A stretch of DNA of 32,059 nt, taken from an uncultured Ectothiorhodospiraceae bacterium. GTDB taxonomy: Bacteria > Pseudomonadota > Gammaproteobacteria > Nevskiales > Oceanococcaceae. The notes under the pieces are model-generated. The model saw nothing but the letters and a program-made list of their open reading frames with translations, did not search any database and was not told where the DNA came from. Positions within the stretch are counted from its first letter, which is position 1; each line of letters begins with the position of its first letter. Shown in pieces: positions 9,085 to 11,608 of the stretch. The stretch spans positions 1-32,059 of the forward strand of contig CAKZQS010000030.1 of NCBI GenBank assembly GCA_937141935.1. Reading direction: 5' to 3'. The translations under genes were made by a program, and so were the position numbers.

Positions 9085-9086
<2 letters not shown>
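9068..9086 (-). terminator. Hairpin at the 3' end of sulP
   Basis: A perfect inverted repeat AAATCGCC-TGC-GGCGATTT overlaps the sulP stop codon. On the minus strand the stem ends in TTT, so it may serve as a short intrinsic terminator or 3' stabiliser. A second perfect 8-bp repeat, GCGGCGCC-CCA-GGCGCCGC, lies just beyond at 9036-9054. Confidence 0.4.
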
Positions 9087-10620
<1,534 letters not shown>

Positions 10621-10660
10621 TGCGGGCTCCGGCGGGCCGCGCCGGCCTGCGGGCCGGGCA

Positions 10661-10762
10661 GCAAAAAAAGCGACCCCCGCGGCGCCTGGCGGCGTCGCGC
10701 TGCGGCATCAATCGGGTTGATGAGTGCGTTGGGGGAGGGCGCAGCCACATGCGTGCTGCGGT
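10661..10762 (-). ncRNA. Candidate ~100-nt small RNA or attenuator leader upstream of sulP
   Basis: Between a near-consensus minus-strand promoter and a T7-tailed terminator lies about 100 nt with clear RNA architecture. From the 5' end: a 6-bp hairpin CGCAGC/GCTGCG (10740-10760) starting two bases after the predicted +1; a C-rich unpaired stretch CCCTCCCCCAACGCACT; a perfect 6-bp hairpin CATCAA-CCCGA-TTGATG (10706-10722); and the terminator (10663-10698). A short hairpin-capped RNA with an exposed C-rich patch resembles trans-acting sRNAs that pair with Shine-Dalgarno sequences. Alternatively it is the sulP leader with conditional termination. I recognise no named family. Confidence 0.45.
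10663..10698 (-). terminator. Intrinsic terminator between the rsx operon and sulP
   Basis: On the minus strand, a GC-rich stem closed by GCGAC (10694-10698) and GTCGC (10670-10674), with further CCGC/GCGG pairing inside, is followed directly by TTTTTTT (10663-10669). It ends 43 nt before the sulP start and lies downstream of the promoter at 10768-10796. Confidence 0.7.
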
Positions 10763-10767
10763 GCAAC

Positions 10768-10796
10768 ATTATCGGCGCGCGCGGCGGCCGTGTAAA
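10768..10796 (-). promoter_or_regulatory. Sigma-70-type promoter upstream of sulP / sRNA candidate
   Basis: On the minus strand, TTTACA (10791-10796) and GATAAT (10768-10773) are separated by exactly 17 bp. Initiation is expected near the A at 10762, directly before the first hairpin. It is the best two-element promoter I found in this GC-rich window. Confidence 0.6.
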
Positions 10797-10888
10797 GGGC
10801 GGGGTGGCTTGCGCGGCCCGGTGGCGGGGCCGAAATCCAGGCCGCGGGTCGGGCCGGCTGCTTTCGCCAGGCGCGCCGCGGCGGCCGC

Positions 10889-11608
10889 TCAGGCCGGCCC
10901 GGCGCGACCGACTGCCGTGTCGGCGGCGGTGTCCGCGGCGGGTGCCGGCCCCAGCGCCGCCAGCCGCGCCTGGGCGCGCTGCGCACGCCAGCGGTCGATG
11001 CCGTTTTTGCCGGCGATCAGGAAGCCGAGCACGATAAAGGCGCCGGGCGGCAGCGCCATCAGCAGCCAGCCGCTGTCGGCGATCTGCCAGGTCCAGTCGG
11101 CAGCCGCCGGGCCGAACATCAGCTGCGCGTCCGCCAGCAGCGTGCCGCGGCCCAGCACTTCGCGCACCGCGCCCAGCGCCAGCAGCACGCCGGTGAAGCC
11201 CAGCCCCATGGCCAAGCCGTCGAGCGCCGCCGGGCCCACGCTGTTGCGCGCGGCAAAGGCCTCGGCGCGGCCGATGATCGCGCAGTTGGTCACGATCAGG
11301 GGGATGAAGATGCCCAGCACCAGGTACAGCCCGTGCAGCCAGGCATTCATCGCCAGCTCGATGGCCGTGACGATGGCGGCGATGACCAGCACATAGACCG
11401 GGATGCGAATCTCCGGGCGGGTATAGCGGCGGATCAGCGACACGGTGACGTTGGAGCAGAGCAGCGTCAGCGTGGTGGCCAGGCCCAGGCCCAGGCCGTT
11501 GATCAGGGTGTTGGACACGGCCAGCAGCGGGCACAGCCCGAGCAGCTGCACCAGCCCCGGGTTGTTCTCCCACAGGCCCTTGCGCCAGAGTTCCGCGGCT
11601 TGGCTCAT
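10889..11608 (-). CDS. rsxE: Rsx/Rnf electron transport complex subunit E
   Basis: A membrane subunit of the ion-translocating ferredoxin:NAD+ oxidoreductase-like Rsx complex. The 239-aa protein has about six membrane helices and the RsxE-specific start [30 protein letters not shown]. The conserved cysteines in LLGLCPLLA and [14 protein letters not shown] are those that bind an intramembrane Fe-S cluster shared with RsxA in characterised Rnf structures. The C-terminal tail after GKNGIDRWR is Ala/Gly-rich. It is the last gene of the operon, its ATG overlapping the rsxG stop by 4 nt. It is distinguished from the paralogue RsxA by its N-terminal extension and length. Confidence 0.96.

Follow-up and report, generated by a model that had tools for sequence, protein, structure and literature searches.

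A conserved promoter and PhaR-type palindrome before the sulP anion transporter gene of an uncultured Ectothiorhodospiraceae bacterium

The sulP locus and its promoter

The window, the whole 32,059-nt stretch of DNA that was analysed (72% G+C), holds on its minus strand a gene for a SulP/SLC26 anion transporter (Table 1), for which the closest solved chain is 5da0 (PDB; E = 1.9e-117). Rnf-type genes lie upstream of sulP, the nearest of them encoding an Rnf-Nqr subunit. An initial annotation made from the letters had described the DNA between these two genes as a cassette of promoter, hairpins, C-rich patch and terminator, and all of the elements that it listed are present on the minus strand at about the places it gave. 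The -35 and -10 boxes are separated by a 17-nt spacer on the minus strand and form the only sigma-70-like site in the 3 kb scanned, compared to 0.1 sites in shuffled sequence. The transcription start, which we infer from the promoter geometry, is close to the one originally proposed, though it is predicted to fall one base before the first hairpin, not two. A further element, which the annotation had not described, is a palindrome of PhaR type lying over the predicted start, the right half of which doubles as the 5' arm of the first hairpin (CGCAGC).

Table 1. Features of the sulP locus in window coordinates, with the basis for each
Feature	Position	Strand	Basis and remarks
Upstream gene, Rnf-Nqr subunit (rnfE position)	10889-11608	-	PF02508
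-35 box TTTACA of the sulP promoter	10796-10791	-	Seen in the letters; sigma-70 scan
-10 box GATAAT	10773-10768	-	Letters; sigma-70 scan; orthologue alignment
PhaR-type operator TGTTGCA-C-CGCAGCA	10754-10768	-	Published motif and orthologues; last -10 base to about +8
Predicted transcription start	10761	-	Promoter geometry, 7 nt past -10
First hairpin CGCAGC-(9)-GCTGCG	10760-10740	-	5' arm is the operator right half; 3' arm not conserved
C-rich patch CCCTCCCCCAA	10739-10729	-	Letters; pairing probabilities
Second hairpin CATCAA-CCCGA-TTGATG	10722-10706	-	-3.0 kcal/mol; not conserved
G+C-rich hairpin GCGAC...GTCGC plus T7, possible attenuator terminator	10698-10663 (hairpin 10698-10670, T7 10669-10663)	-	Letters; fold
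Shine-Dalgarno GGAG of sulP	10627-10630	-	Letters; leader alignment
sulP, SulP/SLC26 anion transporter with STAS domain, 511 aa, TTG start	9085-10620	-	Pfam PF00916 and PF01740

A block conserved before SulP orthologues

SulP orthologues were gathered from named genomes and from the order, in which 15 of 85 genomes had one at E ≤ 1e-150, with the loci L186, L188 and L190 counted once together with L054, L052 and L053, with which they share their genomes. Of the 15 order genomes that have a close SulP orthologue, 14 share one block before sulP. Its carriers are 14 distinct orthologues with SulP identities of at least 72%, and it is positioned 123–217 nt before the aligned SulP start. The block consists of a sigma-70-like promoter (-35 like T.GAC, -10 like GA.AAT) followed directly by a palindrome, TGYTGCA-N-YGCAGCA, that begins at or just past the last -10 base and covers the predicted start. 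A T.GAC-like -35 box occupies the same place in 11 of the 14 aligned orthologues, while L023 and L028 possess TGGACA 1–2 nt farther upstream and the window possesses TTTACA. With the aligned rows anchored on the block itself and the block marked by eye, mean information per column across the 14 orthologues was 1.00 bit inside the block, compared to 0.26 bit in the next 40 nt and 0.21 bit in the preceding 9 nt, which argues that selection acts on the promoter and palindrome and that both go with sulP.

The upstream neighbour does not share this constancy, as rnfE was found in the flank of SulP at only one of 110 loci, the window itself (flanks mostly 1.5–3 kb, some shorter). The footprint stays with sulP even where a different gene lies upstream, and the promoter is accordingly assigned to sulP and not to an independent small RNA gene. 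The promoter of the initial annotation is thus supported by phylogenetic footprinting, but as one that serves sulP. Judged by this comparison it is real and belongs to sulP, and the relatives suggest that a transcript start near 10762 is real as well. A DNA search of relatives with the 251-nt region as query had hits at E ≤ 1 in all 61 genomes; among the matches listed besides the window, there were short stretches only (best E = 6.3e-5 over 41 nt), most of them falling within G+C-rich parts of the query, with a best E of 0.219 in the same-genus genome G001. The leader in G001, the one same-genus genome compared, reads quite differently, and the pairwise alignment of the window with G001, which misplaced even the promoter, was left out of the comparison.

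Palindromes and the published PhaR motif

The PhaR motif of R. eutropha, YTKNTGCRNYGCANMAR, is degenerate and palindromic around a single central base (PMC12849132). The window palindrome fits this motif at 15 of 17 positions, with both mismatches at the outermost positions, and a fit as good was obtained in 4 of 300 shuffles. Sites with ≤2 mismatches to YTKNTGCRNYGCANMAR at the conserved place were found in 13 of the 14 orthologues, compared to two (L031 and L032) among 24 other SulP genes from the order, the 24 being those with a locus available, which five further SulP matches lacked. The site in L054 has 3 mismatches by hand count, and the scan chose another site there. The fifteenth order orthologue (L191, 65% identity), which was also counted among the 24 other SulP genes, lacks a PhaR-type site in the motif scan. 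Further, 10 of 75 more distant SulP loci hold a match with ≤2 mismatches, compared to 1.9 expected, and the most alike of these matching loci are L062, L067, L078 and L096. Among the sequences found by a PSSM of the palindrome were 10 from its own training set, and therefore the published PhaR motif is the independent test.

The phaP1 promoter of R. eutropha is described as having one PhaR site around the start, near -10, an arrangement that fits repression by steric hindrance, and the introduction of the same paper has this repression relieved when PHB draws PhaR away (PMC12849132). Common to phaP1, so described, and sulP are a degenerate palindrome, one central base and one site around the start; sulP differs in that its site, single and over the start, precedes an anion transporter gene and not a phasin gene, and in that PhaR binding is predicted. 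For S. meliloti, the AniA (PhaR) motif is given as palindromic with an NYGCRNYGCRN core, the gene SMa1961 as having a single AniA site between -10 and the start, and the AniA regulon as reaching beyond PHB genes (PMC12542648). By that account the sulP region resembles the AniA regulon in its palindromic motif and, through SMa1961, in its single site by the start.

A PHB_acc_N match was found in 19 of 21 genomes, including the genome of the window (C2:59253-59435), whose PhaR-type protein, with PHB_acc_N and PHB_acc, is encoded at L192:1948-2748 (minus strand). In 12 of the 21 genomes, a strict palindrome of the form TGYTGCANYGCARCA lies 98–210 nt ahead of a Phasin_2 match, a count that combines the lists of palindrome and Phasin_2 places and includes two Phasin_2 matches below the Pfam cut-off. 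The window genome possesses three strict palindromes (reversed-pattern control, 0), one at sulP, one before a thiolase gene and a third elsewhere. Of 38 Phasin_2 places, the 30 with loci were scanned for the published PhaR motif; nine had a site with ≤2 mismatches and 21 had none, the window genome's own among them, with a background of 8.75% of random 420-nt segments that were drawn from SulP loci, sites included. The site in one of the nine (L205) looks like chance. In the other eight (L212, L216–L220, L222 and L223), which had been singled out by their sites, the sites lie 108–193 nt before the Pfam-matched stretch and there is usually more than one.

Pfam was run on the ORFs beside 15 of the 26 palindrome loci (L132–L157), 20 ORFs of which 3 had no family, and the phasin match at L139 was below the Pfam cut-off. 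A PhaR-like palindrome adjoins CitMHS-family transporter genes, a second transporter type, in two genomes of the order (L145 and L151). At L157, the palindrome is situated between a mannose-1-phosphate guanylyltransferase-like gene and an ATP-cone ribonucleotide reductase gene.

The leader RNA and the control of sulP

With the leaders of the 14 orthologues placed side by side, nothing past the operator is conserved. Two perfect 6-bp hairpins in 102 nt, as in the window, are found in 10.5% of dinucleotide shuffles and in 15% of 102-nt window segments, and the 102-nt RNA folds no better than its shuffles (z = -0.12), 78 of 200 of which fold as well. The C-rich patch had been annotated as exposed. 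It is free while the growing RNA is no longer than ~85 nt; in the full-length RNA, five of its Cs are paired to the G-run at 10674-10678 (P = 0.87–0.92) and the other six of its 11 bases are mostly free. This C5:G5 fold (-37.3 kcal/mol) competes with a fold containing the U-adjacent GCGAC:GTCGC stem (-30.1 kcal/mol), which is ~7 kcal/mol worse. The stem and T7 of the proposed intrinsic terminator are present, the T7 being the longest run of Ts in the window with both strands considered, though the terminator is imperfect, its stem belongs to the poorer fold, and GCGAC...GTCGC plus T7 was not listed by a consensus terminator scan. An ATG at 10750 would open Met-Trp-Leu-Arg-Pro-Pro-Pro, its prolines encoded within the C-rich patch; it lacks an evident Shine-Dalgarno, is not conserved, and is given little weight as a real ORF start. 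In two Massilia species (L059 and L065), sulP has a strong hairpin and T run directly before its Shine-Dalgarno and is without a PhaR-type site of ≤2 mismatches.

Five of the 14 leaders (L026, L052, L054, L185 and L189) contain a leaderless ORF of 14–15 codons ending in Pro-Pro-TAG, for which the palindrome centre gives an ATG exactly at the predicted transcription start; the other nine, the window's among them, lack such an ORF. The bodies of the five ORFs are 10–38% identical over 21 nt, about the level of chance, and their last 9 nt are 78–100% identical. The ORF has a scattered distribution on the SulP tree, with 4 changes and as few in 227 of 500 shuffles, such that one gain with losses is indistinguishable from repeated gains; L187, the aligned part of which starts ahead of an in-frame stop, is missing from the tree. 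An ORF of 14–15 codons ending in Pro-Pro is opened by 14 of 31275 ATGs in the collected loci, a count that includes the five carriers as well as overlapping and duplicate loci. The pattern TTGCRATGCASCA-N24-36-CCNCCNTAG occurred in 0 of 369 genomes of the class, a sample that contained four genomes from the order but no carrier of the ORF, which gauges the chance rate and not the spread.

Overall, positions 10796-10620 (minus strand) are read as the promoter and 5' leader of sulP, with a PhaR-type operator through which PhaR probably represses the gene and a leader that may attenuate, a reading to which we assign a probability of about 0.72. The PhaR binding and direction of regulation that we infer would operate as follows. 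The PhaR-type operator overlaps the sigma-70 promoter at the start site, and this position over the start suggests that PhaR, a PHB-binding regulator encoded elsewhere in the genome, probably represses sulP when PHB is scarce; PHB granules would titrate PhaR, which would then leave the sulP operator. The sulP transcripts would carry a G+C-rich leader of ~140 nt, in which the hairpin-plus-T7 before the Shine-Dalgarno may lower read-through.

It is rather improbable that the palindrome instead binds a different regulator whose site is similar. Many of the palindromes do flank non-PHA families, namely CitMHS (L145, L151), TetR_N (L141), FMO-like (L146), DUF4282 (L147), LexA (L150), NTP_transferase and ATP-cone (L157), and BrkB (L132, L134, L137, L153), but the sulP palindrome fits the published PhaR motif, and the palindromes that precede Phasin_2 matches in 12 of 21 genomes include the very ones at L132, L134, L150 and L153. 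From sequence evidence, PhaR is the likeliest ligand. An independent trans-acting small RNA of ~100 nt under PhaR, with the C-rich patch acting against Shine-Dalgarno sequences, would make use of the promoter, the length and the T7, and a PhaR-controlled small RNA has been published in MmgR of S. meliloti, described as repressed by PhaR (AniA) (PMC12542648, PMC8401924). MmgR, however, is reported as a separate gene for a 77-nt RNA (PMC8401924), whereas the window promoter leads to a protein gene. The hairpins and C-rich patch, whose conservation in relatives had been proposed as a check on the small RNA, are neither of them conserved there, in line with the lack of conservation downstream of the operator; the fold is at the level of shuffles, five patch Cs are paired in the complete RNA, and CCTCC occurs in the first 60 nt of 2 of 14 leaders, compared to 1.8 expected. 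Rfam 15 gave no match across the window or among 19 sulP loci, nor for 10600-10860 under a permissive threshold, and for lack of a matching covariance model a known riboswitch or leader RNA family was set aside. With no conservation, a partly paired patch and hairpins within chance, a free-standing small RNA was rejected as the main explanation; a small-RNA reading of the cassette is unlikely, and one acting in trans under PhaR would seem very much so.

An attenuator in the sulP leader is possible, and would be compatible with PhaR control at the start: most transcripts would stop at the T7, and the choice between C5:G5 and GCGAC:GTCGC pairing would set read-through into sulP in response to a ribosome, a protein or another RNA. 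The conditional read-through that the initial annotation had offered as its alternative is compatible with the length of the T7, the two competing folds and the Massilia arrangement, as well as with the T runs of at least five within 130 nt of the aligned SulP start in 9 of 14 orthologues compared to 2 of 24 other SulP genes (Fisher p = 0.0005, for a comparison chosen after the runs were seen). It sits less well with the strict hairpin-plus-T terminators, which were found in only 5 of 14 leaders (2.1 expected from shuffles) and also in 5 of 24 other SulP genes, such that attenuation is weakly supported; among 77 further loci, 19 pass. Neither is there sequence conservation able to carry a shared alternative structure, and the consensus scan passed over the site. 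A more elaborate arrangement, which we consider doubtful, would have two controls of sulP stacked in the order, with PhaR on the start site and then a translation-sensing leader with a proline-arrest attenuator. TnaC is a leader ORF with C-terminal proline arrest. A C-terminal Pro-Pro is described as interfering with translation termination in E. coli (PMC3834316), and as in the proline-arrest leader ORFs of the YbeL-PP model, a short ORF ending in Pro-Pro-stop is present in 5 of 14 sulP leaders. The likeness is limited in that the window lacks such an ORF, that the carriers' ATG coincides with the predicted start inside the operator, and that arrest is putative. Under stacked control, the operator centre of the five relatives would supply the ATG of the leaderless ORF and Pro-Pro-TAG would be the expected arrest end, while in the window's lineage, where the ORF is absent, the C-rich patch (Pro-Pro-Pro codons from the ATG at 10750) would oppose the G-run of the terminator instead. 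If true, carbon storage and anion uptake would be tied by a repressor plus a proline-arrest attenuator. The Pro-Pro-stop leader ORF of the five relatives is a compact and testable candidate for a leaderless arrest peptide.

For the reading preferred here, a PhaR-type operator at the sulP promoter, the term SulP does not appear in the main text of the S. meliloti AniA regulon paper (PMC12542648) or of the other PhaR-regulon paper queried. No report of a PhaR–SulP link was found in a literature search that had most subscription papers outside its scope, and the predicted link of carbon storage to a SulP transporter looks new. If PhaR controls SulP, anion uptake would belong to the PHB storage programme in these bacteria.
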